Below the pieces are notes generated by a model, which was not told the origin of the DNA, ran no database searches, and saw only the letters and a program-made list of their open reading frames with translations. A program made the position numbers and the translations under genes. From the NCBI GenBank assembly GCA_964017185.1, contig OZ024869.1:70278315-70342314 (forward strand): DNA of 64,000 bases, given 5' to 3'. Shown here one piece after another: positions 11,001 through 61,480 of this stretch; the first letter of the stretch is position 1, and every line of letters starts with the position of its first letter. The stretch comes from Rugalucina vietnamica (taxonomy: Eukaryota; Mollusca; Bivalvia; Lucinida; Lucinidae).

Positions 11001-11286
11001 TGCTTCACGCCTCTCTTCACTTTTGCGTCCACTCCAGAAGAAGGTGTATCCAGCACCAACTTCTTTGATCTCCCCAACATCTGCGAACCGAGTCTCACTC
11101 AATGCAGCTATCTGTATATCATACCTCCCAAGTTCTCTGCCCACAAGGGCCGTTCTACGCTGTGGTCTATCTGACCCAGCATTGTCCATTAAAGTACGCA
11201 CATTCCATGCGCCAATCCGTAAGGGGATTACTCTAGCTTTTTTCTTTGTATTTCGACCGCTTAAGGGGATCCCCGCTGATCGCGGT
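8010..11286 (-). CDS. LINE A ORF: endonuclease-reverse transcriptase
   Basis: At least 1,063 codons without a stop. The conserved APE start RIGAWNVRTLMDN lies partly upstream of the GTG at 11,201, and the frame stays open to about 11,286, so the true start is upstream; no ATG is evident. APE landmarks: SETRF (catalytic E, about residue 36), LLGDFNARVG (about 145), DYVIV and TDHRLV (about 215-245). Reverse-transcriptase landmarks: GKAPGADAIPAEVYK, HRGISLLSIAGKILAKIL, VDLTKAFDTVSRDGLW, VKQGCVLAPTLFSMMF and LLYADDM (catalytic YADD, about 740). The thumb has FTYLGSTLS and LYACETWTVY. Near the C-terminus CSTCNRQF and GLVSHQRTH form a C2H2 finger, probably for nucleic-acid binding. The protein would nick target DNA and copy its own RNA there. 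All key residues are present, so it may be functional; plus-strand ORFs over it are shadows. Confidence 0.9.
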
Positions 11287-13183: not shown

Positions 13184-13468
13184 CATCAGGATAACATGTC
13201 CGTGTAATGTATACCCCCTTGAACCCCAATTTTATATAGCAAAACTGGGGTATGCAGGGGTATATCTATTTTTCTTATTTTTGCTTCAAAACATAGATTG
13301 TGGGTACTCGTTAGAACCGCCTCGCCGATGCGGTTCTAACGTGTACCCACAATCTATGTTTTAAGCAAAAATAAAAATAAGAAAAATATCAAAAATTTTC
13401 TGCTGAAAATTTTCAATTTTTACAACTTACGAAAAATCTTTATATTACATGGGCGTGTTTTCGTAATG
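13184..13468 (+). mobile_element. Palindromic MITE (family P), forward orientation
   Basis: One of eleven copies. The ends are imperfect inverted repeats, CATCAGGATAACATGTCCG and, reversed, CATTACGAAAACACGCCC. A small hairpin (ACCCCAATTTT / AAAACTGGGGT) is followed by a long foldback whose arms read ATAGATTGTGGGTACTCGTT and meet at the GCCTCG centre. No coding capacity, so its transposase would come from elsewhere. No target duplication is evident. Confidence 0.85.
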
Positions 13469-24639: not shown

Positions 24640-24764
24640 GTGCCTTTCGGAACCAGAATTTTATTGTGACTTAGTTAACAAATTTAAGAAACTTATAGGA
24701 AGGAAAATTTTTTCTTTTCAATTCAAAATCATTATACGTTACAAACGTATAGGATATAATGCGA
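24640..24764 (+). mobile_element. PLE fragment, left part (split by a DNA element)
   Basis: Matches PLE 3,905-4,025 (CCTTTCGGAACCAGAATTTTA; first 20 bases shared). It resumes at 27,236 after the element at 24,765-27,235. The motif ATATAATGCGA at its right edge is repeated at the restart. Confidence 0.8.
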
Positions 24765-24935
24765 ATTACAGACACTTCGGCACCACTACGACTTCGGCAC
24801 CTAGACAAATCGGACCCTAGTCAAATCGGCCCCAGTCATTTCGGCCCAGTCACTTCGGACCCTAGATGCTTCGGCACCACTTTCATATCGGCCCCACTTT
24901 TATTTCGGCACCTAGTCTATTCGGCACCACATTTT
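24765..24935 (+). repeat. Left tandem-array terminal repeat
   Basis: About nine to ten units with core TTCGGCACC, ATCGGACCC or ATTTCGGCCC spaced about 17 bp. The reversed right end (27,085-27,235) has the same order at its outermost part. Confidence 0.85.
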
Positions 24936-25510
24936 TCATATTACTTTTTATCAGTCTTCTAGCTATCGTTTGTGGTTGTGCAGTCCGATTTGGGTTCAAC
25001 ACTTCTTCATTAGATGGAACAGAAACTCAGCAGTAACATCAGAAAACATTTTGTGTTTAATCTTTAGTTTTCTTTCCTTTTATTTAAACAAGTAAAACAT
25101 AAAAAAAACAATACTGAAGTGATTCGACTGTGCATCTGTGCATTGACGATTCTTAAACAAGGATCACATGATTCCATGTTTTTAAAACACCATATCAATA
25201 GAAAATAGTTCATTGTCATGCGTTGTCGCTGAAAAATGCATTTTCACTTTATAAGTGCCTACATAGGTAATAAACTTTTTTCAGTATACCTGTATACAGT
25301 TTTTTTGTTTTTTTTTTAATCCTGAGTTGCAACTTGCACTTCATTGTCTTTAGAATGTCATATCACATTCACATAGGCGTGCGGCGCGTAGATGTGCCCA
25401 ACTTCTTGCAGGAACTCTGACGTCTTTAGCTGCTTCTGCTCTTAAGGGTTGAGAAAGAGAATTTGATGGATTTTTCTGAACGGAAGTTAACGGGAAAAAT
25501 CGCACAATTA

Positions 25511-25536
25511 TGTTTTTTTTTTTTTTTTTTTTTTTT
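25511..25536 (+). repeat. Poly-T tract
   Basis: About 26 T in the interior of the tandem-TIR element. The surrounding 24,940-26,220 is AT-rich with no gene seen. Confidence 0.9.
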
Positions 25537-26221
25537 GTCGGATATATTTTGCCTGTATATAGGGCTAAGCGGTTGATGAAAGGATTGCAACATATAAATA
25601 TAATTTCCGTGGCTCGGTTATTTTAAGATTGGTTTGACTGGATGTACTCGTGTATGATTTAAAACTAAAAAAGAGGAAATTCAATTTTCTCATTTGTCAT
25701 TTTAATTTCTAAAATGCTATCTCATTGTCTTAATATACAAATTAATATTTTTTAGGTATGAATGACCAATATATAAATATAGCATTATAGTTGTGACAGA
25801 CGATTTTAATACACGTACATGTACAGGTTTTGTGACACGTGCCGGTAATTGGATTTAATCGTCAATAATCCAATTAAAAAACTAATCGATTAATAATCGA
25901 GTATGTCCAATGGAGTAAAACGACACGCGTCAATAATTGGATTAAATCTTATCCTGATTTGATGACTGTCCCGTATAAACACCATGAAGCAGGATGCAAT
26001 GTATGAAGGGCATAACAATAATTCTTCTCGTATTTTATTCCATGTACAGACTGTTGATGTTCATTTACTTACTTTCATGTGAATTTCTTGTTTTCGGATT
26101 ACAGCAATCACTCAAGTTTTGCTAATTTGACGTTCCGCGTGTTTTGAACAGTGTCATTGTCACTGTATTAGCGATGCAATAATAAAAAACAGTATAAAAA
26201 TTACATGATTCAAAAGTCATT

Positions 26222-26285
26222 GAACAAGGTAAAAGTAGGCAATGATCAGGAAATGACGCAATCAGAAAGAAATTCCCACTCCTAA
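26222..26285 (-). mobile_element. PLE tail scrap
   Basis: Reverse complement of the outermost PLE tail (AGGTAAAAGTAGGCAATGAT; GAAAGAAATTCCCACTCC). Confidence 0.75.
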
Positions 26286-26340
26286 GGCAGATATTGTTAT
26301 TAGATTATTATTGTTGTAATTCAGAATTTTATTTTCAACA

Positions 26341-26392
26341 TTCGATTGAGAAGCGTAGTGGTAGAGCATCTGATTCCAAATCGAGAGGTCCT
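26341..26392 (+). repeat. tRNA-derived fragment (Trp-like left half)
   Basis: GCGTAGTGGTAGAGCATCTG resembles a D-arm/A-box, followed by an anticodon-like loop TTCCAAA (CCA). The T-arm/B-box is absent, so this is a SINE head or pseudo-tRNA, not a working tRNA. Confidence 0.55.
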
Positions 26393-26404
26393 GAGTAGTA
26401 ATGG

Positions 26405-26541
26405 GCGGCGGTATAGCGACTTTTTCTGAAAACTTATAGCGCATTTTTATAGCGACGTTTCTAATAAGCGTAGCGAGAGAAACGGCGCTATATAAAAGGC
26501 GCTGTAAGTTTTCAGAAAAAGTAGCCATACCGCGTACCCTG
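26405..26541. repeat. Foldback hairpin, about 135 bp
   Basis: GACTTTTTCTGAAAACTTATAG on the left (first 20 bases) pairs with AAGTTTTCAGAAAAAGTAG on the right; AGCGACGTTTCT pairs with AGAAACGGCGCT near the centre. A small MITE-like hairpin. Confidence 0.7.
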
Positions 26542-26542
26542 G

Positions 26543-26690
26543 GTGTGGCAGATGTGTAGATGTGCAGAAGTGTAGATGTGCAGAAGTGCAAATGGGTAGA
26601 TGTACAGATGTGTAGATGTGCAGATTGTAGATGTGCAGATGGGTAGATGTCCAGAAGTACAGATGTGTAGATGTGCAGATGTGTTCCTGT
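26543..26690 (+). repeat. Minisatellite, GTAGATGTGCAGA-type
   Basis: About a dozen degenerate units of 10-13 bp (GTGTAGATGTGCAGAAGT). Confidence 0.9.
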
Positions 26691-26699
26691 CTTAACTCA

Positions 26700-26935
26700 A
26701 TGATACTACCTACACATATAACTTAGCTGGTTCATTTTAAACTGAGACCCAAGGTGCGCTATTACTACTGTCTTGGGCTCGATTCCCACAGGCGGCACCG
26801 TGTTGTGTCCTTGAGCAAGACATTTACTCCCTACAGTAATGGTTAAATCCAGGAAGCGTTGGCTCCGTCCCGACATGACTGAAAAATGTTGTCTGGGACG
26901 TTAAGCCTTAATTCAAACAAGCAAACTAATTCTTG
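26700..26935 (+). mobile_element. tRNA-derived SINE
   Basis: B-box-like GGGCTCGATTCCC, then GTGTTGTGTCCTTGAGCAAG, a block I associate with conserved invertebrate SINE cores, and a tail CGACATGACTG...GGGACGTTAAG. The A box is decayed. Presumably mobilised by a LINE. Confidence 0.65.
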
Positions 26936-27084
26936 AAGTTTATGCTGGCATAAATTTATGAAAAATGCGTATATTCAAGTTAGCCATTTCTACTATCACG
27001 AAGCACAACGTCTTAATACCGGGTGCAGGACATTTCGTCTAAAACCATTTCGTCTAAAACTGATTTTTGAAGTGAAATAAAAAG

Positions 27085-27235
27085 GTGCCGAAGTATCTAG
27101 GGTCCGAAGTGACTAGGGTCCGAAGTGACTATGGTATTTTTCTAAAATGGTGCCGATTTGGCACTGGGGCCGATTTGACTAGGGTCCGATTTGTCTAGGT
27201 GCCGAATTCGTAGTGGTGCCGAAGTGTCCGATTAC
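27085..27235 (-). repeat. Right tandem-array terminal repeat
   Basis: Reverse-oriented array (GGTGCCGAAGT, GGGTCCGAAGTGACTA, GGGGCCGATTTGACTA) ending GTGTCCGATTAC. Adjacent at about 27,030-27,060 is a twofold ATTTCGTCTAAAAC motif. Confidence 0.85.
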
Positions 27236-27716
27236 ATATAATGCGACAGTCTGCATGCTTAACTATGCTGCCTTCTTTAATTGCACGCCGGTGGGTCGGA
27301 CATCAGACTCTATGATGGTTCCGACCTAAAGCTATTCATTGCCAGAACATCTTGGCTGTTGCTTGGCCAACCGGGGTTCAACTGGTGTTTTTATTTTTCT
27401 TTTGCTCCGGATTTTAAGTAAGTTATTTGGCGCCAAGGGATCTTCATCGTCGGGCAGCTCACTTATTCTTTGAGTCCACTTTGTGGTTATCATGATTTAT
27501 TTGTTTGTCCTTGATGATTAATTGTCTGGTTAGAGATTCTCCACGAAGACCGAACAACTGACTAAATGCTGTGCAGTAGCTGAGGGCGAGGTAAGGTACC
27601 TGTAAAATTAGTTTAAGCCCGCCGTAATTTTATATTATTGATCGTTCCAGTGCGATATTTCTGGTGTGATTCTTAGTTTTTATGTCTTGGTGTAGACGGA
27701 ATATTTCCATCGGTAT
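27236..27716 (+). mobile_element. PLE fragment, right part
   Basis: Continues the PLE from GCGACAGTCTGCATGCTTA (matching 4,044) through ATTTTATATTATTGATCGTT, and is cut off near 27,716. Confidence 0.8.
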
Positions 27717-30896: not shown

Positions 30897-31172
30897 CATT
30901 ACGGAAACATGCCCATGCAATCTACACAGATGAAAGTTGTGAAAAATGAAAATTTTCAGAAGAAACTTTTTGATATTTTTCTTATTTTTGCTCAAAACAT
31001 AGTTTGTGGGTACACGTTAGAACCACCTCGCCGAGGCGGTTCTAACGAGTACCCACAATCTATGTTTTGGAGCAAAAATAAGAAAAATAGATTTACCCCT
31101 GCATACCCCAGTTTTACTATATAAAAGTGGAGTTTTAGGGGGTATACATTACACGGACACGTTATCCTGATG
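30897..31172 (-). mobile_element. Palindromic MITE (family P), reverse
   Basis: CATTACGGAAACATGCCCAT to CACGTTATCCTGATG, with an intact foldback around CACCTCGCCGAGGCGG. It lies just 70 bp upstream of the glutamate-receptor-like first exon. Confidence 0.85.
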
Positions 31173-34522: not shown

Positions 34523-34801
34523 CATTACGAAAACTTGCCTATGCAATATACAGAGATTTTTTGAGCTTTCAAAATTGAGACTTTTGAGCTGAAAAATTAT
34601 GATATTTTTCTTATTTTTGCCCAAAACATACATTGCGGGTACACGTTAGAACCGCCTCAGCGAGGCGGTTCTAACGAGTACCCACAATATATGTTTTGGA
34701 GCAAAAATAAGAAAAATAGGTATACCCCTGCATACCCCAGTTTTGCTATATAAAATTGGGGTTCAAGGGGGTATACATTACACGGACATGTTTTCATGAT
34801 G
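34523..34801 (-). mobile_element. Palindromic MITE (family P), reverse
   Basis: CATTACGAAAACTTGCCTAT to CATGTTTTCATGATG. Also present at the same place in the paralogue (58,418-58,696), so it predates the segmental duplication. Confidence 0.85.
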
Positions 34802-37955: not shown

Positions 37956-38234
37956 CATCAGGAAAACATGTCCGTGTAATGTATACCCCCTTGAACCCCA
38001 CTTTTATATAGCAAAACTGGGGTATCATGCGGTATACCTATTTTTGCTTATTTTTGCTCCAAAACATAGATTGTGGGTACTCGTTAGAACCGCATCGGCG
38101 AGGCGGTTCTAACGTGTACCCACAATCTATGTTTTGAGCAAAAATAAGAAAAATATCAAAAATTTTCAGCTAATTTTTTTTTAATTTTTAAAGCTCAAAA
38201 ATTTTCTGTATATTGCATGCACGGGTGGGCATCA
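37956..38234 (+). mobile_element. Palindromic MITE (family P), forward
   Basis: CATCAGGAAAACATGTCCGT start, foldback centre CGCATCGGCGAGGCGG; the right end is eroded (GCATGCACGGGTGGGC). It sits at the edge of segmental duplication X. Confidence 0.8.
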
Positions 38235-39699: not shown

Positions 39700-39890
39700 A
39701 TTGATATATTATGGTGGGAAAACGCGATGAGGGGAAAAGTTGCGGAGAAAAGAGAAAGGTGTACCAATGTGATGAGTGCCAAAAGCTATTCAGCACGCGG
39801 TATAGGTGCGCATACCATATTCGGATCAAGCATTCTGATACGCCGTCCAATGAAACTGTGCCTTGTCAGAGACGATCGATATCCAAATAA
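39700..39890 (+). pseudogene. C2H2 zinc-finger exon start, truncated by an inversion
   Basis: A pyrimidine-rich tract and CTGTTACAG precede an exon with ATG at 39,711: MVGKRDEGKSCGEKRK, then one finger YQCDECQKLF...HIRIKHS. At about 39,856 the sequence switches into the inverted copy and the frame ends at 39,890 after 59 codons. The finger is nearly identical in DNA to 40,083-40,187 on the opposite strand. I read this as the original left end of a zinc-finger exon whose remainder now lies reversed next to it. Confidence 0.6.
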
Positions 39891-40187
39891 CCGGTCACAT
39901 TTTTCACAAGCAAATTTATCTTTGTTATGATGCTGCCTCTTATGTCCATTGAGGTCTTTCTTGGAGGCAAATCTTCTCTTGCATGCATTACACTGATGCT
40001 GTTTTTCCGCCATGTGGACCGCTGATATGTGTGTTCTGAGATTGGCCTTTGTACTGTATTTCTTTTTGCAATATCTGCATTCAGTTTCATTGGACGGCGT
40101 GTCAGAATGCTTGATCCGAATATGGTATGCGCACCTATACCGCGTGCTGAATAGCTTTTGGCACTCATCACATTGGTACACCTTTCT
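39786..40187 (-). CDS. C2H2 zinc-finger exon, four fingers, inverted
   Basis: The minus-strand frame begins at the breakpoint near 40,187 (KVYQCDECQKLFSTRYRCAY) and has four fingers: CDEC...H..KH, CRYC...H...H, CNAC...H...H and CEKC...SSLTRH, each about 28-30 residues apart. The fourth lacks its last histidine because the frame crosses into the inverted repeat (SFIGRRIRMLDP is the reverse strand of finger 1). Such fingers bind DNA or RNA. No start codon or splice acceptor lies directly upstream on this strand; that part sits at 39,700 on the other strand. The exon is therefore probably rearranged and non-functional, though an intact parental gene is likely elsewhere. Confidence 0.65.
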   Translation of the reverse strand, partial: RKVYQCDECQKLFSTRYRCAYHIRIKHSDTPSNETECRYCKKKYSTKANLRTHISAVHMAEKQHQCNACKRRFASKKDLNGHKRQHHNKDKFACEKCDRLFGYRSSLTRHSFIGRRIRMLDPNMVCAPIPRAE

Positions 40188-40288
40188 ATTTTATTCTGTC
40201 TCTATTTGAACAGTTTATTGTCATCTAATATCCATTTCCGAAGAATCAATTCACTGTCGGCTTCTTACACAACCGGCGTCAAACAAAT

Positions 40289-40720: not shown

Positions 40721-40998
40721 CATTACGAAAACATGCCCATATGATATACAGTAATTTTTTCAGGTCAAAAATCGATAATTTTCAGAGGAATATTTTTGAT
40801 ATTTTTCTTATTTTTGCTCAAAACATAGATTGTGGGTACACGTTAGAACCGCCTCGGCGAGGCGGTTCTAACGAGTACCCACAATCTATGTTTTGGAGCA
40901 AAAATAAGAAAAATAGATATACCCCTGCAAACCCCAGTTTTTCTATATAAAAGTGGGGTATACGGGGGTATTTATTTCACGGACATGTTCTCCTGATG
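40721..40998 (-). mobile_element. Palindromic MITE (family P), reverse, with empty site
   Basis: CATTACGAAAACATGCCCAT to CATGTTCTCCTGATG, with a near-perfect foldback around GCCTCGGCGAGGC. In copy 2 the flanks are joined as GTGCACTTTAGTTACAAT (about 62,260), so the insertion added about 279 bp with at most 1 bp duplicated. Confidence 0.9.
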
Positions 40999-42481: not shown

Positions 42482-43480
42482 CTAGTTGTGTTCAAAGTAA
42501 TTGTATAAGGTAGCCCATTTTCGTAGGAATGTCGCAAAGTTGTTATTCAAGTTCGCTAAATATTTTTCACTCTTGTATTTTCTGTGTAAAATTGACTTGA
42601 AAGATTCTACGTTTAGTCGTCTTCCGGAAAATTTGTTTGAGTATACATAGTATTTTGCTAATAGAAGTATATAGTTTATCAATTTATGTTTTTGTTCATA
42701 AGAAAACAAGATATTTTTGTCATTAAGAGATATTCGCAAATTAAAGTTGTTGATTAACCATGCTTCTAATTCCCTCCAAAATATTTTCACTGTGTTGCAA
42801 TGTACGAAAAGATGGTGTATGGTCTCTGGATTTTGTCGACAATATTCGCATAAGTTATCATCTACTTTATTTATTCTATATAAAAATGATTTAGTAACTA
42901 ATATTTTATTCGTTATTTTATATTGAAAGTCCCTTAGTTTGATTTCTTTTAAAGTTGGTATTACAGAATTGTATATTTTCATCTCTTCCCCACCAATTTG
43001 ACCAATTTCTTGCTCCCATTTCGTACTGGACTGCACGAGCTTTGTCGGTACCATAACATCATATAATCGTCTACATCCTTTTTTATCCCTTAGCAAAATT
43101 TGAAGATATACATTACATCTAACATCATACTTAGTTAACATACATGTTATTCTATTATCATTGATTAAATTTTTCCATAATTCTGGCAGTCTCCTTATAA
43201 ATGCTCGAAAATCTAGAATAGTTCCGCGTAGATTATATTTCGCTTTTAATGCTTCAAAATTATATAAGTTTCCTTCGTCGTCGATTATGTCCGATACAAA
43301 TTTGATGCCCTTTTCATACCAATCCCGAATAAAAAACTTATTACCATTTTCTGCATTCTGATTGTACCACAAAGGTGAATCCTGAACCTGTCTAATTGAT
43401 TCAATTTTGAACTCCTTACAAAATTCCGCCCAGTTTTGTAGAACGTCTTTCCAAAATGGATTTTGCATGTTTTGACTTAA
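42482..43480 (-). CDS. LINE B ORF2, C-terminal part (shifted frame)
   Basis: Continues ORF2 from NLSQNMQNPFWKDVLQNWAE through about 330 residues to a stop at 42,482. It contains the L1-type C-terminal zinc-knuckle region CEYCRQNPETIHHLFVHC and ends KWATLYNYFEHN. The ATG at 43,468 is inside the domain, so this is not a separate gene. A single frameshift, rather than programmed reading, is the simplest explanation. Confidence 0.85.
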   Translation of the reverse strand, partial: LSQNMQNPFWKDVLQNWAEFCKEFKIESIRQVQDSPLWYNQNAENGNKFFIRDWYEKGIKFVSDIIDDEGNLYNFEALKAKYNLRGTILDFRAFIRRLPELWKNLINDNRITCMLTKYDVRCNVYLQILLRDKKGCRRLYDVMVPTKLVQSSTKWEQEIGQIGGEEMKIYNSVIPTLKEIKLRDFQYKITNKILVTKSFLYRINKVDDNLCEYCRQNPETIHHLFVHCNTVKIFWRELEAWLINNFNLRISLNDKNILFSYEQKHKLINYILLLAKYYVYSNKFSGRRLNVESFKSILHRKYKSEKYLANLNNNFATFLRKWATLYNYFEHN

Positions 43481-46286
43481 ATTTTTGGCATCCTATTCCT
43501 AACGTAAACAGCTTGTGGAAGTCGATACCAGATAACGTGTACCATGATACATTTCTATCATTTTGAATTATTCTCCTCAGCCATGTGATTTTAAGCGATT
43601 TGATAAATACATTAATATTGACCATTCGAAGTCCACCTGCGGACATGTCTTTTATGATAGTGTTCCGTTTTATACGATCTGGTCCGGAATTCCATAAAAA
43701 CTTGAAAAATAGCGTATCAAGTCGTTTTATAAGATCCCCAGGAGGGTTTGGTAAGGCTAAGAACGGATGAATAAACTTGCTTAGTGTTAATGATTTGATA
43801 ATAGTGATTCTACCAAAGAGAGTCAGTTTTCTTTTAGACCGTTGATTTAATAGACTTTCAACTTTAGTTGTTATTGGTGGTGCATTTACATCCCATATAT
43901 CAAAAACCTCCGTTGTGAACGTTACCCCTAGAATTTTAAAATGCCCTTTTGTCCAGTCTAGGTTATAATTTCTACAAATCCTGTTATCAGAATTGCTTAA
44001 TGATTCTATCCAAATAGCCTTAGTTTTTTCTATATTAATTTTTAGACCGGAAATAGCATAAAACCTATCTAAAACCTCTAAGGCTGCTCGCAACGAATCT
44101 TCTGTTCCATCCAGAAATATTTGCGTATCATCCGCATATTGACTAAGAAGAAGTTCTTTTGTGTTTATTATTATTCCCTTTACATTTTCATTTTTTCTTA
44201 ACATTTTTCCTAAAATTTCGGCACAAAGTATAAAAATGTATGGGGAGACTGGATCACCCTGTCGACATCCACGTTTTAATTTCAAAAAGTCAGACATGAA
44301 GCCATTTTGAATGATACATGATTCGGATCCTTTCTGAAAAAGTTTAAGCCACGAAATAAATGAAGATCCAAAATTGAAATACTTTAAAACCTTTTCTATG
44401 AATTCCCATGACACCGTATCGAACGCTTTTTCAAAATCAACAGAGAGAGTTAGGCCTGGCAGTTCTTGATTTTTTGTTTCAAATAGTACGTCATAAATAA
44501 GTCTAACATTTTCGGAGATACATCTACCAGAAATAAAACCTTTTTGGTCCTCATGTATAAGACTATCTAACACCGTTTTCATTCTATTTGCAATAACTGT
44601 TGAAGCAAGTTTATAAACCACATTGAGGAGTGATATAGGTCGCCAGTTTTTCAAGTAATTTCTATCTTTATCTGATTTTGGCAAACATGTTATGACACCC
44701 TGTTTTTGAGTAATCGAAAGAGACCCTGTTTCGTAACCATGATTTATAGATAGAAGAAGGAAAATACCTAAGTCAGCCCAAAAACATTTATAAAATTCTG
44801 CAGTGTACCCATCTAAACCAGGACTTTTATCATTTTTCATTTGTTTTAATGCCTGTAATAGTTCTGCATAAGTAATTTTACCCTCCAAGCTGTGTGACCT
44901 CTCCTCTGACAATTTATCTTTATTGTCACCTAATAAATTATTCAGGGTACTATTTTCAGAAATAGGGTTTTTATCATAAAGTTGTTCATAAAACTGTTTT
45001 TGACAATTTAGAATATCTTTAGTGTCTGTATGTTCAACATTATTTGAATCAATTATTTTACTCATAACCTTATTTGTATATTGTCTGTTTTCTAAACCTA
45101 GAAAATATTTAGTGGGCTTTTCACCTAAGTCTTGGTACCTGCTTCTTGATCGTAACATTACGCCTTCTATTTTTGATTTCCTTATTTCCGATAATCTTAT
45201 TTTTTTCTCGCTTAAAATTTCAAGATTTTGATCGCTAATATCCAGAAGGTTGTCATTTACACGAGTTTCTAGATCTTCAATTTCATTTTCAAGTCTTCTT
45301 TCTTCTTCTATAGATTGCTTCTTTTTAAATGAACTATATTTTATCGTATGTCCCCTAATAATTACTAAAAGTGTTTCTAAAAATAGCTGATCGTTTATAT
45401 TAAACTGTACATCTTCGTTTTCGATATTCGGTTGTTCTTGCATGTTAGTAGCATATGTTTGTTTTACTTCATTTATTAATCTTTTACTTTCATTTACATA
45501 TATTTTATCTTTGAGTAACGAATTATTAAATTTCCAGTATCCTCTCCCTCTTTCACTTTCCTGTAATTTAAGTTTTAATACAATTGATGAATGATCAGTT
45601 CTATACCCAGAAGTGATTTTTGCATCCGTGACATAAGGGTAGATACTATCGTGTACCAGAAAAAAATCTAATCGCGATTGCTTTCTCGTCGGATTCAGTC
45701 TACGCCATGTAAATTTTTTCACATTTTCATTCATAATACGCCATGGATCTTTAAACTCATTTTCATTCAATAAGTTTAATACTACATTTCTCGCTCTAGG
45801 GTTATTTATGTGTAAATAGTTTTCACAATCTTTTTCAACATCTAAACAGAGGTTCCAGTCTCCACACATAATCACTTCATCATTTCCGAACTCTGTAACA
45901 TTTCGTTTTATATTTTCGTAAAATTCAGGGTTATCCTCATTGGGTCCGTATAAATTAACAAGTGTTATGTTCTTTCCGTCAATATTCAAGTCTAAAATTA
46001 AAAAATTCCCATTTCTGTCTTGTTTTACACGGTTTACCTTGTGCTCAAATGTATTATTCAACAATACCATAACTCCACGGCTGTTTGTAGTGTAAGAGCT
46101 AAAATACGCTTCATACCCCCATTCCGATTTAATAAAAGCATCTAATTTAGGATTAATATGTGTATCCTGCAAGCAAATAATATTAAACTTTTTTGATCTA
46201 ACATACTGAAACAAATCTCTTCTCTTTGTTGCTACTGACAGACCCCCACGACAGTTTTGTGAAAAAATGCTTATTTCCTCAGCCAT
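43416..46286 (-). CDS. LINE B ORF2, endonuclease and reverse transcriptase part
   Basis: ATG at 46,286 gives MAEEISIFSQNCRGG. APE landmarks: SQNCRGG, CLQDTH (D where many LINEs have E), VNLYGPNEDN, MCGDWNLCLD, SRLDFFLV and TDHSSIVL. A lysine/glutamate-rich linker (about 300-400) precedes the RT: KSPGLDGYTAEFYKCFW, NWRPISLLNVVYKLAS, SVDFEKAFDTVSWEF, RGCRQGDPVSPYIFIL and LLSQYADDTQIF (catalytic YADD). Then come the thumb (LTLFGRITIIKSL) and FFKFLWN...GGLRMVNI. This is the L1-superfamily layout, perhaps Tx1-like. The frame ends at 43,416 after a one-base shift near 43,480-43,490 (an A-run on the coding strand) and the protein continues in the next frame. It is otherwise open throughout, so the insertion is young. 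Confidence 0.9.
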   Translation of the reverse strand: MAEEISIFSQNCRGGLSVATKRRDLFQYVRSKKFNIICLQDTHINPKLDAFIKSEWGYEAYFSSYTTNSRGVMVLLNNTFEHKVNRVKQDRNGNFLILDLNIDGKNITLVNLYGPNEDNPEFYENIKRNVTEFGNDEVIMCGDWNLCLDVEKDCENYLHINNPRARNVVLNLLNENEFKDPWRIMNENVKKFTWRRLNPTRKQSRLDFFLVHDSIYPYVTDAKITSGYRTDHSSIVLKLKLQESERGRGYWKFNNSLLKDKIYVNESKRLINEVKQTYATNMQEQPNIENEDVQFNINDQLFLETLLVIIRGHTIKYSSFKKKQSIEEERRLENEIEDLETRVNDNLLDISDQNLEILSEKKIRLSEIRKSKIEGVMLRSRSRYQDLGEKPTKYFLGLENRQYTNKVMSKIIDSNNVEHTDTKDILNCQKQFYEQLYDKNPISENSTLNNLLGDNKDKLSEERSHSLEGKITYAELLQALKQMKNDKSPGLDGYTAEFYKCFWADLGIFLLLSINHGYETGSLSITQKQGVITCLPKSDKDRNYLKNWRPISLLNVVYKLASTVIANRMKTVLDSLIHEDQKGFISGRCISENVRLIYDVLFETKNQELPGLTLSVDFEKAFDTVSWEFIEKVLKYFNFGSSFISWLKLFQKGSESCIIQNGFMSDFLKLKRGCRQGDPVSPYIFILCAEILGKMLRKNENVKGIIINTKELLLSQYADDTQIFLDGTEDSLRAALEVLDRFYAISGLKINIEKTKAIWIESLSNSDNRICRNYNLDWTKGHFKILGVTFTTEVFDIWDVNAPPITTKVESLLNQRSKRKLTLFGRITIIKSLTLSKFIHPFLALPNPPGDLIKRLDTLFFKFLWNSGPDRIKRNTIIKDMSAGGLRMVNINVFIKSLKITWLRRIIQNDRNVSWYTLSGIDFHKLFTLGIGCQKFKSKHAKSILERRSTKLGGIL

Positions 46287-46292
46287 TATCAA

Positions 46293-47743
46293 ATGTGAAT
46301 ATTATATGGTTATTTCTGAAGATACTGAAGGGCAAATGAAATGTAATGTGTATTTTCCTAACATTATTCCGAACATAGCAGTGTATCAAAACGCCATCCT
46401 CCTTAAAAGAGCTTACCTTAAAAACACTCATTTTCCGGTTGCTGTCAAAGGTACTTTATTTAATGATATCCTCATTGTATTATGGTGTTAAATCTTTTAA
46501 AATGGAACAATTTTGTATAAGGTTTATATTACATGTATTTGCTTTTTTCTAATGTAGTTTAAGGTGTTGCATAATGTAATTGATGAGCAGAAACAAACAA
46601 TGCAAACATATGTACAAAGTGGTGTGCAAATGAAATACAACATATGAAATAAGATTTGAAACAATATGAACATCTAATAAACAATTGGCAAAAGCAATAA
46701 AGGACTGATAAGTACATGCAATCAGTAGATTTGTTTTTCAAATATCACTCGGCATTGCATGGTTTATTAACACCATTGTCATTCAGTACTAAGTCCAGAG
46801 TAAATCATAACTTTTTAAGTATGTTCTTTACTCACTTTTACCCGCAAATGCTAGTAAGCATGGTAAGTATACCCAAGCAATGATTATGAAATGGAAAGGC
46901 TTAAATGTACATTCAGTTGCAATTGCCAAGTTCAGACTGGATCTGAAACTGACAATGACTTTTTCATGGATTTATGCTTCACTCACTATCATAAGCCAGT
47001 CAAAGTGAGCATGCTATACAAAATAGGCAGTTTTCATGCTCTAGGTCACTGAGGGTTGTCAGATAGGTATGTATTCACAGTACATTAACTTGATATTGAA
47101 TAGCATATAATAAGTAAGTATGCTCATTTATCACTTGCAATGGATAAGCACACAAACAACATTTATTTGTGATTTTACTGGTGAGCAGGATCGGACAGGT
47201 GAGCATTATAATTTCATTACATTAGCATTCCAATTTATTGTCAATACTTGTTCATAGTACTAAAATCTACACCAATGTGGACTTTTGTAAGTGCAAGCAG
47301 TATTCATGCTATAGATCACTGACATTTAACCCAAACAGGTAAATAATTATCATGCTTGATATTACATGTCATCTGTTATATTTTTCATTTGGTACATAAT
47401 AAACATGCTCAAATGCAACAGTGATTTATGGTTTTACAGATGAGCAGCTTCAGAAAGCATTAATATTATCATGACACAGGCATTCTACTTTGAATAATAG
47501 TACTTGTTCATAGTATTATAACCTAAATTTATGTGATCAAGTAATTGTAATTTACTTAAGAAAGGTAAGCATTGAAGTTGTCATTTCAATCAGATTACAT
47601 TTTCACTAAAACACATGTGTACAGTATTAATCAATGCTGACAATGGTCAAGCACATATAATTGTAATTTGCTAGTCATAATTTGCATTCCTAAATAAACA
47701 TGATAAACTCATGTAAAACATTTCAAACAGTATTGAGGCCCCT
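46293..47743 (-). other. LINE B 5' region with tandem units
   Basis: Two clear units of about 265 bp (about 47,030-47,295 and 47,297-47,560) share CATGCT(C/A)TAG(G/A)TCACTGA, GTGATTT...GAGCAG and TACTTGTTCATAGTA; weaker related sequence flanks them. Tandem 5' units acting as promoters are known in some L1 families. A 58-codon minus frame (MSVFKVSSFKEDG) overlaps the ORF2 start, and a 74-codon plus frame covers the same bases; neither is convincing. Confidence 0.55.
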
Positions 47744-48399: not shown

Positions 48400-48950
48400 T
48401 CTTTTTGCATTGTCAAATACATTATATTTGTCTATGGAACGCCAAGGCTGTCTGATGGTAAGGAATAAAAACATTTGATTCATCATCGTCATTATATCCT
48501 GCTCACATTTGATTATATGTTGTATAGTGTGCATTATATAATGAGAAAAGTCCATTATATGTTGGACCAGGTTCTTAATATTATGAAAATTTTCATTATA
48601 TGATGAGTAAACATCTTTATATTATGGTAGACTTACATTATATGATAAGTAAACATCTTTATATTATGGTAGACTTACATTATATGCTGATACAACCTCG
48701 TTATATTATGTATGTTTCTTATTACATTATGGGCTATTGTCTTCATATGCATCAAGTTGATTATATGGTTTAATAACTTCATTATATGCGCAAACTTAAT
48801 TATATGCGCAAACTTCATTATATGCGCAAACTTCATTATATGATGTGACAACTACATTTTATGATGTGGACGATTTTGCGAGAAGAAGAATTACATTGAC
48901 ACCGTTTAGAGAGTTATTGTATACGTGCCGGGACTACCGGACATACTGCT

Positions 48951-48953
48951 GAT

Positions 48954-49026
<73 letters not shown>
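48951..49026 (+). repeat. (ATCT)n microsatellite
   Basis: About 18 units; reverse-complement partner at 49,940. Confidence 0.98.
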
Positions 49027-49102
49027 AATCATTATGATCATGATCGATCATCACCATCATCATCATCATCATCGTCATTATGATCTATCATCATCAATGT
49101 CG

Positions 49103-49149
<47 letters not shown>

Positions 49150-49156
49150 GATCGAA

Positions 49157-49190
<34 letters not shown>

Positions 49191-49939
49191 GACCATTATG
49201 ATCGATCATCATGATCGATCATCATCGTCGATCATGGTGATGATCGATCATCATCATCATCGACCATCATCGATCATCATCATCGATCATCACCATGATG
49301 ATCGATCATCATCATCATGATCGATCATCATCTATCATCATCATGATCAATCATCACCATGATGATCGATCATCATCATCATAATCGATCATCATCACGA
49401 TCGATCATCATCATCATGATCGATCATCATCATGATCGATCATCATAACGATCGAGCATCATGATCGATCATCATAATCGATCATCATCATCATGATCGA
49501 TCATCATCATGATCGATCATCATCATCATGATCGATCATCATGATCGATCATCAGCACGATAGATCATCATGATCGATCATCATCATCATAATCGATAAT
49601 CATCGATCATAATCATGATTGATCATCATCATTATCATCATGATCGATCTTGATTATCGATGATTATCGATCATGATTACTATAAAATGATCGATCATGA
49701 TGATTTAGATAGATCATGATGATGATGATGATGATCGATCATGATCGATTATGATGATCGATCATGATTATTATGATCGATCATGATGATCGATCATGAT
49801 GATCGATCATGACGATGATCGATCATGATTATGATGATCGATCATGATGATGATGATCATGAAGATCGATCATGAGTATCGATCATGATTATCGACCACA
49901 ATGATGATTGATCATGATGATGATGATCGATCATGATGA
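49027..49939. repeat. ATC/GATCGATC satellite-like core
   Basis: Irregular ATC runs punctuated by the palindrome GATCGATC. The left half is mostly ATC, the right half mostly ATG, so the core is itself roughly symmetric around 49,650-49,690. Confidence 0.9.
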
Positions 49940-49940
49940 T

Positions 49941-50010
<70 letters not shown>
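49940..50010 (+). repeat. (GATA)n microsatellite
   Basis: About 17 units, the reverse complement of 48,951-49,026. Confidence 0.98.
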
Positions 50011-50247
50011 ATCAGCAGTATGTCCGGTAGTCCCGGCATGTATACAATAACTCTCTAAACGTTGTCAACGTAATTCTTCTTCTCGCAAAATCGTCCACAT
50101 CATATAATGTAGTTGTCACATCATATAATGAAGTTTGCGCATATAATGAAGTTTGCGCATATAATAAAGTTATCGAACCATATAATCAACTTGATGCATA
50201 TAAAGACAATAGCCCATAATATAATGAGAAACATACATAATACAAGT

Positions 50248-50679
50248 AAAAAATTGCTCTCGGACAGAGCAGAGGAGACAGCGCTGGCAAACCAAGATGT
50301 ATGATCAGAGATGATTATGATGATACACAGTACACATTTTGAATCGTGTCTATAACCAACATTTATACACTTTGATGGCAAAACAGTGGACACCTACTGC
50401 AAACAAATTATTTCTTCCCTAATTATGCATAATCATATTCATTAGTTTGGCGGACGAAGCAAATACACACTACGAGGATTAATAATAATAATAATAAATA
50501 AAATCAAATAAAATATTTTGATAGCTTTCTGGTTTATAGATGCACTAAAATAAACATTGACATGTCAGCAGAATCATGAAAATAAGTTCTAAACTATACA
50601 TACATAAAATAAATTAAACGTCGACCACACATGTATTTATTAAATAGATTCTAAACTTGCAATGCAAATACACATTTGA
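50248..50679. other. No gene seen
   Basis: Start of the insertion in the right arm of the giant palindrome. AT-rich, with a short TAA run near 50,480. Confidence 0.45.
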
Positions 50680-50830
50680 TTTTTGTTGAACGAACCACTC
50701 ACAGACTAAGGTCATCTCGATTTAAAATCTCTAAAGGGTGACTGGAGAATCTCGGGATCGAACCATCGACCCGTGTTTTACAAGGCTAGTGGCTTAAAAA
50801 TTATAACGAGTTCAACACGTATCCGCCACT
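50680..50830 (-). mobile_element. tRNA-derived SINE, minus strand, unit 1
   Basis: Reversed: GGTTCGATCCCGAGATTCTC (B box and core), then GAGATGACCTTAGTCTGTGA and CAAAAATCAAAT, a tail like the LINE B 3' motif. Confidence 0.75.
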
Positions 50831-50839
50831 GTTATACGT

Positions 50840-51000
50840 TTAGTAACACATTTATCTGTGAAAGTCTCGGACCAAAGGACTGGAGAAGTCCGGGACTTAA
50901 CCCATGACCCATGTTTTACAAGGCGAGTGGCTTAAAACTTAAAAATGAGTTCAGCACGAACCAACCACTATTGCGTTTTGTTACCCATTTTTCTCATGTT
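50840..51000 (-). mobile_element. tRNA-derived SINE, minus strand, unit 2
   Basis: Reversed: GCCACTCGCCTTGTAAAACA, GGGTTAAGTCCCGGACTTCT and CCAGTCCTTTGGTCCGAGAC. Same head as unit 1, with its tail lost at the junction, giving a head-to-tail dimer. 51,001-51,364 shows nothing recognisable. Confidence 0.7.
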
Positions 51001-51364
51001 GTATCGCCTCTGGTAGCCGGTCGAAATTGATCGACGTAATTCCGCATTTTTACGTCGGGTCGTTATTCTTTGTCAGTGACCGAAAGTTGTAAGTCGGTCT
51101 TTCATCAAGGATCGAACGACTACTGAACTTTATGTTATAAACCACTCTAGAACCGGAAGGCGCGGAACAAGAACAGAACCTTACGCGTCTGCAAAACCGT
51201 TTCAAGACCCCAGTAATTTTATAATACTTTTTGCATTTTAAAGGGTTATACATTATAGCACAAGGGAGCAAACGTTAACCTTGCAGTTATTGAAAAGGGT
51301 CGGTATCGTTTGTAAAACAAATATGATGGTTTGAAGGCGCAAATCATACATTCCGGGTTTGATT

Positions 51365-51672
51365 AAAAAGGTACAAGTAGGCAATGATCAGGAAATGGCG
51401 CAATCAGAAAGAAATTCCCACTCTATAAACCGAGGGGTGGGAAAAAGCTAAAATGACACTTAGGTACATACGAGTATACCAAGAAAACATATCGAAAGCA
51501 GAGTGAGCAGCTATTCCTCAATAGGCGATCACTCAGTTACCCGAACTGATCTAAAATATGAAAACGTACATAATAGGGCTCAAACAGCACAAATATTCGT
51601 CTCTAAAACATAAAACAATTTGAACCACAACAGAAGTATCGCCTTGGAACGACTAAGTAATATAAAATATCC
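51365..51672 (-). mobile_element. PLE 3' tail fragment, minus strand
   Basis: AGGTACAAGTAGGCAATGAT, GAAAGAAATTCCCACTC, GCAGAGTGAGCAGCTATT and GTAATATAAAAT follow the reversed PLE tail. Confidence 0.8.
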
Positions 51673-52639
51673 CATAACGTGTTTGGTCACTTAAAAACCC
51701 GCCACGTTTTTATTTGATATGGGTACACAGATTAACGCACTTAGCTTTTTGCAAAACGCATTTTGCATAATTATCAGTCTGTACAAGAGAAAGTATCCGT
51801 AGATCTACTAATGTTAAGCTGTGGTAGATTTACCTGATCTTTGATCCCCAATCAAGTCGCTCGAAAAATACACAAAAAAGGAATCTATGTTTTAGCGACT
51901 GAAACAAAATACCAAGTCCTGTTAACACTGAAAAACAAAACGGGATTCCAATTCCCCAGGGTTCGCGAAACATCTAGAATGTGCTTGTTTTATGTACCTA
52001 TGATCGATATCTACATGTACAGATACTTCTACAAATAGCCCCTGAAATTCCACAAACCATAAGACATAATCTAGGTTTTACTCTAACACGGTCATCTAAT
52101 TATAGATAGTAGAGGATTATGATACGGAATCTAGGTCAGTTATATAAGCACGCGAAGAGTTCTTAGCAACGTTGAAAAACCGAAAGGGCTGTCTGCGAGG
52201 GTTTTTACACACGCAGCGAAAAAATGGAAAAAAAAGTAAAAATGATGCGGTAACATAAAATAACATTATATCTATCGTATTTATAAAAAATAATTTAGAA
52301 GAAATTTTGCAAAATAACTTTTTGTATCATAGTTTTATAGACGTTTTTTTTATTGATTTCTTTCGAAGCCGACCACCCTTTCGATATAGTCTTAATGAAA
52401 AAATAGTTCCTCAATTTTTATCATCAAATTTAATTAAAGTCAGTCATTTAAGACAAAAAACATGTTAAGATGCAGATCAAGATATATTTGATGTTTTGAC
52501 AAAATGATTTCGCATGTATTGAACCAGGAATGGAAGTAGCCGCTCAAATCAAAGCTGCTTATAGCAATGAAGAATCAATTAATTGTGCCCCATAACCCTT
52601 GCTCAAACTAACCACAAATAGCACTGGCTTGGGAGCCAG
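51673..52639. other. No gene seen
   Basis: AT-rich; a 65-codon frame at 51,841 has no domain. Confidence 0.4.
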
Positions 52640-52905
52640 CGCAATAATGAGGTTGTACCAGCATATAAAGATGTTTACTCATCATATAATGTAAGTCTAC
52701 CATAATATAAAGATGTTTACTTAACATATAATGAAAATTTTCATAATATAAAGAACCTGATCCAACATATAATGGACTTTTCTCATTATATAATGCACAC
52801 TATACAACATATAATCAAATGTGAGCAGGATATAATGACGACGATGAATCAAATGTTTTTATTCCTTACCATCAGACATCTTTGGCGTTCCATATTTGTC
52901 CGTTT

Positions 52906-53222: not shown

Positions 53223-53501
53223 CATTACGAAAACTTGCCCATGCAATATAAAGAAAATTTTTTAGCTTTAAAAATTGAAAATTTTTAGCTGAAAAATTTT
53301 GATATTTTTCTTATTTTTGCTCAAAACATAGATTGTGGGTACAAGTTAGAACCGCCTCGGCGAGGCGGTTCTAACGAGTACCCACAATCTATGTTTTGGA
53401 GCAAAAATAAGATAAATAGGTATATCCCTGCAAACCCCAGTTTTACTATATAAAAGTGGGGTTTACGGGGGTATACATTACACGGACACGTTTTCCTGAT
53501 G
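53223..53501 (-). mobile_element. Palindromic MITE (family P), reverse
   Basis: CATTACGAAAACTTGCCCAT to CACGTTTTCCTGATG, with a foldback around GCCTCGGCGAGGC. Well preserved. Confidence 0.85.
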
Positions 53502-58319: not shown

Positions 58320-59480
58320 CACAACTGACTTTCAGTAACTATATATTTTCGCCTAATGCACGGCCATGACAACTCAAGCTCAAGCTCATTATAGTTGACT
58401 ATTCCGTTAGAAATTGACATTACGAAAACTTGCCTATGCAATATACAGAGATTTTTTGAGCTTTCAAAATTGAGACTTTTGAGCTGAAAAATTATGATAT
58501 TTTTCTTATTTTTGCCCAAAACATACATTGCGGGTACACGTTAGAACCGCCTCAGCGAGGCGGTTCTAACGAGTACCCACAATGTATGTTTTGGAGCAAA
58601 ACTAAGAAAAAATAGGTATACCCCTGCATACCCCAGTTTTGCTATATAAAATTGGGTTCAAGGGGGTATACATTACACGGACATGTTTTCATGATGATAT
58701 TGGAACAGTCTTCTATATATAAGAACAAAATGAACAAAATGTATCTAAGTCTACATTAATTACACATTATGACCTTATCAATCGCGTTCTACCATTTGGG
58801 CTGTGAAATACGCCAGCAACGTTTGAACGTCGGTAAGGCATATGGTGAGTTCGTTTATGGGTGTACATCTCAATTCGTTCAACTTATACGAATGAATAAT
58901 CTTAAGCTTAAGGTGCAGAATGGCAACAAAGGTATATTTGTTTCATGTATATATGGGACATATAACTTCTGAATGGAATTAAAAAACAACAACAGAAATT
59001 ATTCATTTAGGTTCGTTGGATTCAATAGCTATAACATGCGTGTCATTCTGAATTTCGGTGGAGTCGCAAAAACCTGCCAGGTGAAGTGAGGATGTAATTA
59101 GGACATTTAAGACATTTCTGACTAAGTCGCCAGTTCAATTCTGGTAGAGTCTGACTTCAAAGGTATCCGTGATGGAAAATATGCTAGTAGAAACATATGC
59201 TGGTGATATAAGTATAGGATTAGTATGATCATGCATACATGGTGAGAAAGAATGGTTGTCTGCTTTTGGCACAGATCATCAACCAAATTAGAATGGAATA
59301 TTTTGTGAAGTGACAAGAACTACATTCATAACTATCTCTGTGAAAAGGAAAAGCAGTTCCATTACTTTCTAATAAAGAGGCACATTTGCCGCCGGGTGGC
59401 AAGAAAATTATTACCTGGGATTACATTACCTGTGGGGATTTTAGTGGGCGTGGCTAGGCCACTGGCCTAGTTAACTTTAA
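58320..59480 (+). repeat. Segmental duplication X, copy 2, left part
   Basis: Matches 34,430-35,571, including its MITE. Few differences by eye. Confidence 0.9.
58418..58696 (-). mobile_element. Palindromic MITE (family P), reverse
   Basis: Paralogue of 34,523-34,801, sharing its flanks. Confidence 0.85.
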
Positions 59481-60216
59481 GGGGATGTCAATTGTTAAAA
59501 TCTAATACTTGTATAATTTTACCTGTATAAAGAAAAATGACAATTTTTCCAAGGAGACTGGATATTCTTGAAACATTCTTGTATGAGTCATTCAAACATC
59601 GAATACAGATTATTTTATGCCCAAAAACTCAGCTCTAGAGGGCTCAGCAGCACGCTTATCAGCATTGGTCAAGTTACTTCCTGGTTTGATTCCGTTGTCA
59701 TCTGTCTGGCATGCTGGATAAGTTTTACTAAAAAGCTACCACCATAAACATGATCTCCAAACGCCAGACTACAATCTGTGAAAGTTTGTCCACTCGGAGA
59801 TGATTTCTTCTCGGGGAAAACATGGTATTTATCATATATGCTGAAAACCTTATACAGCAGATACAGTAAATAGTATGATTTCTCCCAAAATATTGACTTT
59901 TTGTTCAAAATACTTTCACAGATTGTAGTCAAGACATTGGAGATTATGTTTACGGTGAAAGCTTTTAGTAAAATTTATCCGGCATGCCAGGCGGATGACA
60001 ATGGAATCAAACCAGGAAGTGACTTGAACAATGCTGATAAGCGTGCTGCTGAGCCCTCTAGAGCTGAGGTTTGGGGCATAAAAGAATATGTATTCGATGT
60101 TTAAATGACTCATACAAGAATGTGTCAAGAATGCCCAGTCTCCTTAGAAAAATTGTCATTTTTCTTTATACAGGTAAAAATTATACAAGTATTAGTTTTT
60201 GACAATTGGCATCCCC
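59481..60216. mobile_element. 736-bp foldback element in a TTAA target
   Basis: Two arms of 305 bp each (59,481-59,785 and 59,912-60,216) are imperfect reverse complements around a 126-bp loop. Ends GGGGATGTCAATTG and CAATTGGCATCCCC. TTAA lies on both sides (59,477-59,480; 60,217-60,220), and duplication X copy 1 has one TTAA at 35,568, the empty site. TTAA targets are typical of piggyBac-type elements. No transposase; the 87- and 67-codon frames are arm mirror images. Confidence 0.9.
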
Positions 60217-61480
60217 TTAAGCCTATCGGAATACCTGTAATACTTAATCTGCTGATAAGAGCTGTCAAAAATTCCACAGGTTACTTTCCTCTCTGATGTT
60301 GACTAAGAAACCTTATTCGTCAAATAGATGGATGGATTAATGCCTTATCAGATGAACCTTTAGCTGACATTATTTGATCACAAAATCTTATCTTATACTA
60401 ATTTTCACATTTTTGAATAAACAATTAAAAAGCCAAAGATAGAACATATATTATTGGTCATGGTCAAAAGCCTACATAAAAATAAAACTGAGATCCTTTA
60501 AGGGCAGTTTTGGCTTCTCAGGTCTCCTCATCAGTGATCCTATAGATCTGGCAACATGGAGCCAAAGAGAATTACTGTAATTTTGCAACTTTCAACAATG
60601 TTGTCGATACAAAGACTAGTATTATCCAAAGAGGGTCAAATATATCAAATCTTGTTACAAAATGCTTTTAAACCGATCATAATTTCTTATTTCTCAGAAT
60701 ATCCTCGCTGATCTCAAAAGACCAAAAGGAAAATTTAATCTGCACTATGTATGATGTAGGGGAGACTTTTAGGGCCGCCACACGGCACAAACCAGCAAAT
60801 AGCAAATTAAAATTGAAACTATGATCCTTTAAGAGCAGTGAGCATATAAATGATAAATGGGATGGGCCATACCATGGTTTCGGCTACTTAAGCCTCATCA
60901 GTGACTACCCTATAGATTTGGCAACATGCCGCCTCTTTTGGTAGAATACACTTCTTTTGTTTGCAGCATTTTCAACATATAGACATTTAATAACCTTGGT
61001 GGCAAGTCGTCGACCAAAGTGAGAAAAGCTCAAATGATATACTTTGACATAGAAGACAAAATTGGGTTAATTGAGCCAAACTTTCTTATAGAGTTTGGCG
61101 CCATTTGATCATTTGATCGACTGAGATTTTGATTGTCTAATATATTTATGCCGATATTACACCAGTTCATATCTTGTAAATTGGCTTCAAGATGGTTTTA
61201 CACTCTTGCTGTTCCAAAATCAGTAGTGTAGAGGATAGAACACCAATTAGTATAATGCAAATACCGGTTGACCTATGGGATAGATGAGCATTTGTTGATC
61301 GAACTGTTTAAATAAGTATCTTTTCAATCATGTGTCTCTTTGATGTTAAACAATATATGACCATGTGTTTCTCTTGGTACTTGTAACATGTGTTAAACAA
61401 ATAGGTGCCCCTTTTCTAGTGTTTACAAAACTTTGTCACGTGAGGTCAACCGACACGGTCAAAGTATTTGTTCTATATAT
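60217..61480 (+). repeat. Segmental duplication X, copy 2, right part
   Basis: Matches 35,568-36,504 and 37,645-37,955; includes the D dimer at 60,475-60,935 and the empty site (61,143) of the TGACGT-rich element. Confidence 0.9.

Follow-up and report, generated by a model that had tools for sequence, protein, structure and literature searches.

A palindrome with motif-array arms in the bivalve Rugalucina vietnamica is probably a foldback DNA transposon with IS3EU-type ends

A stretch of 64,000 nucleotides from the lucinid bivalve Rugalucina vietnamica (GenBank assembly GCA_964017185.1, contig OZ024869.1, forward-strand positions 70,278,315 to 70,342,314; hereafter the window, numbered from its first letter) contains a very long palindrome, between positions 48427 and 52900, whose arms consist largely of regularly spaced short motifs and enclose a simple-repeat core. 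The original prediction had offered two possibilities, an undescribed foldback element with motif-array ends or a chromosome-fragile palindrome. Our analysis indicates that the palindrome is probably a foldback DNA transposon of the non-autonomous kind that inserted once and was later split by a 2.4-kb insertion, its most likely superfamily being IS3EU (IS3EU/GingerRoot); on this reading a strange palindrome becomes an ordinary insertion event.

The hexamer TTTGTC stands in direct orientation immediately outside both arms, as identical left (48427..48432) and right (52895..52900) copies of a target-site duplication on the plus strand, and the similarity between the arms starts on each side at TATGGAACGCC. 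The termini of the element read TATGG...CCATA, and the terminal 25 bp of the two ends match at 23 of 25 positions. The window has 813 pairs of TAYGG with CCRTA at distances of 60–8000 bp, and only the element's own has identical 6-bp flanks, whereas random 6-mer pairs match at a rate of 0.000375; the TAYGG/CCRTA signature was picked after the ends had been seen, and the control therefore gauges the rarity of the combination and is not a blind discovery. IS3EU elements generally have TA..TA termini and duplications that are usually 6 bp long (PMC10045372), and fungal IS3EU families combine 6-bp duplications with TAYGG..CCRTA ends (PMC12730594). Since both the ends, which fit the general and the fungal form, and the 6-bp duplication match this published signature, an IS3EU type is the most likely assignment.

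The same ends have to be weighed against membership of another superfamily, in which case the element would be a Mutator/Phantom-like, P/Galileo-like or hAT foldback (the last with 6- or 8-bp duplications) that bears TATGG..CCATA by chance and would operate identically, only with a different transposase. Groups of hAT elements with 6-bp duplications do exist (PMC12730594), and an 8-bp duplication, TATTTGTC (from 48425), can also be read at this locus if the two ends are taken to be unequal by TA. The terminal pentamer and the duplication length jointly fit IS3EU, however, and we regard a different superfamily as unlikely. The termini of hAT, P and Polinton elements are, as we understand them, different from TATGG..CCATA. 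Polintons had been considered on account of their 6-bp duplications and long arms, and were set aside on their termini, which we take to be AG..TC.

Inside the duplication the predicted long palindrome was confirmed, first by inverted-repeat detection, which paired 48433–48683 with 52644–52894, 48701–48824 with 50122–50245 and 48793–49023 with 49941–50171, and then by alignment of the arms, which are identical at 457 of 476 positions (96.0%, GATA arrays excluded) and so differ by 19 substitutions. The left arm, a terminal inverted repeat delimited by inverted-repeat detection, BLAST and alignment (48433..49026, plus strand), measures 594 bp, close to the roughly 570 bp first proposed, and the right arm, on the minus strand, is divided into an inner part (49941..50241) and an outer part (52644..52894, ending in CCATA). 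The outer block (48433–48705 against 52649–52894) is identical at 237 of 246 positions and the inner block (48706–48953 against 50011–50241) at 220 of 230. From the outside inwards each arm comprises a plain end of about 57 bp, a motif array, a unique stretch of about 85 bp and a GATA array; in the left arm, on the plus strand, these correspond to a terminal domain that carries no motif units (48433..48489, the first unit starting at 48490), the array itself, a unique inner stretch (48878..48953, about 85 bp when counted from the last motif) and a 73-bp TCTA (GATA) tetranucleotide array (48954..49026). The GATA array of the right arm (49941..50010, minus strand, 70 bp) is identical to its counterpart at 70 of 70 positions. 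Two stretches of the left arm, one of 21 bp and one of 18 bp, are missing from the right arm, and each is as long as a single motif unit; the smaller gaps between the arms, of 6 and 1 bp, are located at the insert junction.

These differences between the arms bear on the suspicion that the palindrome was made by the assembler, which would have copied one arm in inverse orientation. Assemblers are apt to err at palindromes and simple repeats, and the core may not have exactly the length given in this assembly; an artefact as the source of the whole structure is nevertheless very improbable, because 19 substitutions and whole-unit insertions or deletions separate the arms, the insert is present in one arm only, and the duplication stands at the outer ends.

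Between the arms lies a core of 914 bp (49027..49940), delimited by simple-repeat analysis (TRF) as a degenerate ATC/GATC repeat, which holds 74 of the 237 GATC of the window as well as 27 copies of GATCGATC. On the plus strand it is ATC-rich until about 49650 and GAT-rich beyond, (ATC)n switching to (GAT)n. The two sides are unequal (618 vs 257 bp by TRF), and the switch point is therefore off the centre of the arms; the length of the core has probably been changed by slippage. A core so dominated by simple repeats invites the alternative of a rearrangement: such a hot spot could have undergone inverted duplication or template switching, in which case the arrays would be ordinary minisatellites and the palindrome would not be a mobile element. 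Palindromes do arise through rearrangement, but such an event does not by itself account for a 6-bp direct repeat placed exactly at both outer ends, nor for termini resembling those of a known superfamily, and we consider this origin very unlikely.

The left motif array (48490..48877, plus strand) consists of 19 units of CATTATATNATG type, about 19 short motifs having been counted at the outset; 17 of them are within one mismatch of TTATATG, and two weaker ones, at 48576 and 48722, were added by hand as they lie in the 21-bp frame. The spacing had been put at roughly 25 bp and proved to be shorter: the 18 spacings comprise 13 of 21 bp, one of 20 bp and four of 18 bp, with the outer 12 made up of eleven at 21 bp and the one at 20 bp, and the final six running 18, 21, 18, 18, 18 and 21 bp. 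Exact TTATATG occurs 10 times in the left arm and 11 times on the opposite strand in the right arm, compared with a maximum of 2 per strand within 528 bp elsewhere in the window and a mean of 0.44 (maximum 4) in 2000 first-order Markov copies of the arm. When the rows of the outer part of the left array were aligned in the 21-bp frame (11 rows, the 20-bp unit excluded), the columns carried 21.6 bits; rotating the rows at random 5000 times yielded 8.1 on average and 12.5 at most. The conserved columns form a near-palindromic 12-mer, CATTATATNATG, of which the TTATATG that was originally taken as the motif, although indeed dense in the arms, is only one half; a perfect palindrome close to it, CATTATATAATG, is present exactly at 48532. 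If up to two mismatches are allowed, the window contains 30 occurrences of the 12-mer, of which 20 are inside the element and 10 outside, and 12 of the 19 left units fall within this limit. The outer units thus recur about every two turns of B-DNA, which would bring the sites onto the same side of the helix.

The right arm is interrupted by an insert of 2402 bp (50242..52643) that the left arm does not have, in keeping with the block of about 2.4 kb that had been predicted to split one arm, and which we take to be a later event. Its boundary was set by a 5-bp ATAAT repeat at the insert and is uncertain by a few bases; ATAAT is a candidate 5-bp duplication, although a weak one, since 4-bp alternatives fit too. 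The insert carries a dispersed repeat at about 51362–51669, of which BLAST found diverged copies, some complete and some partial, at 2.6, 4.5, 7.3, 17.7, 21.2, 26.2, 27.6 and 29.2–29.4 kb (9 BLAST rows). ARAGORN and Rfam gave no matches across the window, and the label of short interspersed nuclear element (SINE) that had been proposed for this part consequently rests only on the repeat's dispersed copies.

Three features by which foldback elements are recognised are found together at this locus: long inverted arms that form most of the element (594 bp on the left, with a mirrored counterpart beyond the 914-bp core), tandem repeats within the arms (the 19 units of the left arm) and a target-site duplication at the outer ends (TTTGTC on both sides). 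The proposal of a foldback element with motif-array ends is accordingly upheld by the duplication at the arm ends, by the tandem arrays and by the fact that everything outside the core is inverted repeat. The word ‘undescribed’ is justified only in part, foldbacks with repeated arms being already known and the ends fitting the known IS3EU superfamily.

Movement of the element would have depended on a transposase made by an autonomous relative elsewhere, for which the array of 12-bp motifs would supply putative binding sites aligned along one side of the DNA. Such an array may raise the affinity and specificity with which the ends are recognised and assist the pairing of the two ends, so that multimers bound to many sites would bring the ends together before insertion creates the 6-bp duplication; the analogy with Galileo makes recruitment of the transposase the probable role of the array. 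Units may be gained and lost in whole steps through slippage or unequal exchange, and the core would be filler expanded by slippage. More tentatively, the element may represent an IS3EU foldback lineage whose long arrays, in phase with the helix at about two turns per unit, present a palindromic, operator-like site on which a transposase multimer assembles, with whole-unit changes preserving the phase; we hold this more specific proposal to be possible but less likely than not. The whole-unit differences between the arms fit slippage and selection for phase alike and do not discriminate between them.

Several observations weigh against the foldback and IS3EU interpretation or against its phased-array form. 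The IS3EU assignment is drawn from five terminal bases and the length of the duplication, of which the latter can also be read as 8 bp with unequal ends. No transposase gene was seen, and no frame of at least 130 residues overlaps 48427–52900, which is what a non-autonomous copy would lead one to expect. A BLAST search with the left arm gave no further copy within the window, and the evidence is that of one locus. Two pairs of the rows used in the phase test are near-identical recent duplicates, so that the rows are not independent; the four 18-bp spacings disrupt the two-turn phase in the inner third of the array, and the inner units near them keep only half of the 12-mer (4–5 mismatches, with 6 in one unit). 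Finally, substitutions between the arms are not rarer in the motif (5 of 17, the motif making up 124 of 447 positions), although this absence of conservation after insertion would also be expected of a dead copy.

Relatives of the arm were also sought in IMG/VR, where 13 stretches contained three spaced ATTATATG motifs; BLAST of the left arm against these loci produced short matches only, the best of them (E 0.004) covering 58 bp at 72%, and they were taken as chance matches. The window itself varies between 31 and 47% G+C in 2-kb steps and contains numerous dispersed inverted repeats. A second foldback-like insertion at 24754–27246 has inverted arrays of 16–17-bp units of TCGGCACC/TCGGACCC type, 24771–24836 pairing with 27163–27228 (98.5% over 66 bp) and 24834–24878 with 27084–27130, and outside them the 11-bp sequence ATATAATGCGA is repeated identically in direct orientation at 24754–24764 and 27236–27246; so long a duplication would suit a Mutator-like element. 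A degenerate 8-bp minisatellite, GCAGATGT, lies within this second insertion at 26548–26684. The segment at 59477–60220 is an almost complete palindrome of 744 bp (85% self-complementary) in which GGGGATG..CATCCCC is directly adjoined by TTAA at either end, and it looks like a TTAA-inserting palindromic miniature inverted-repeat transposable element. Self-complementary hairpins of about 112–129 bp were found at 13261–13388, 30974–31089, 34603–34718, 38039–38155, 40800–40915, 53303–53418 and 58500–58611, and several of them resemble one another, which points to a family of short hairpin repeats that is common in the window. Two reverse-transcriptase elements lie on the minus strand, one at 42482–46301, divided between overlapping frames of which the first holds RVT_1 and the endonuclease and the second zf-RVT (Pfam), and one at 8010–11285 with a single open frame of 1091 residues, both carrying an endonuclease domain in the reverse-transcriptase frame as in elements that lack long terminal repeats (Pfam RVT_1, Exo_endo_phos). 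A frame of 134 residues with C2H2 zinc-finger similarity occupies 39786–40190 on the minus strand, where a 111-bp inverted repeat (39748–39858/40082–40192, 98%) is also found.

Foldback structure is thought to have arisen in different lineages, with most members assigned to Mutator (PMC4079207), and foldback ends have been reported in at least two unrelated superfamilies, Mutator and P (PMC4079207, PMC3688188, PMC3169594). The literature searched does not describe a foldback design in IS3EU; the one paper there that names both, PMC8268682, does not link them, since ‘foldback’ belongs solely to the title of a cited work and IS3EU serves only as the label of two tabulated satellites. A foldback with the IS3EU signature is hence new only within the literature searched, and may belong to a family already catalogued. 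If the more tentative reading, that of a phased-array foldback lineage in IS3EU, is true, the Galileo/FB design would have originated independently in a superfamily whose bacterial relatives include IS3 and IS481. A further foldback-bearing superfamily with a far more regular array would make the reason for such ends directly testable, the many short sites in near-fixed helical phase permitting multimer-assembly tests in vitro.

Compared with the known systems, the element shares its termini and duplication length with IS3EU/GingerRoot but carries no transposase, and the excerpted descriptions give inverted repeats of >30 bp and mention no long motif-array arms. Tetris and the other foldbacks cited with it (FB, those of sea urchin and Chironomus, and FARE; PMC4079207) similarly combine an outer domain with repeats inside the arm, although the Tetris repeats are about 220 bp long (TIR-220). 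Tm1, a Mutator/Phantom foldback of root-knot nematodes, likewise has composite arms with a variable number of copies of a motif of about 14 bp, but differs in its 9-bp duplications and asymmetric 7-bp terminal motifs (PMC3169594). Galileo, the P-superfamily foldback of Drosophila, also has long arms with internal tandem repeats, and its transposase domain binds repeats inside those arms, which hold extra binding sites (PMC3688188); it belongs to another superfamily, however, and has few sites, one proximal and two further in the arm, whereas the element described here has 19 units at near-fixed spacing.
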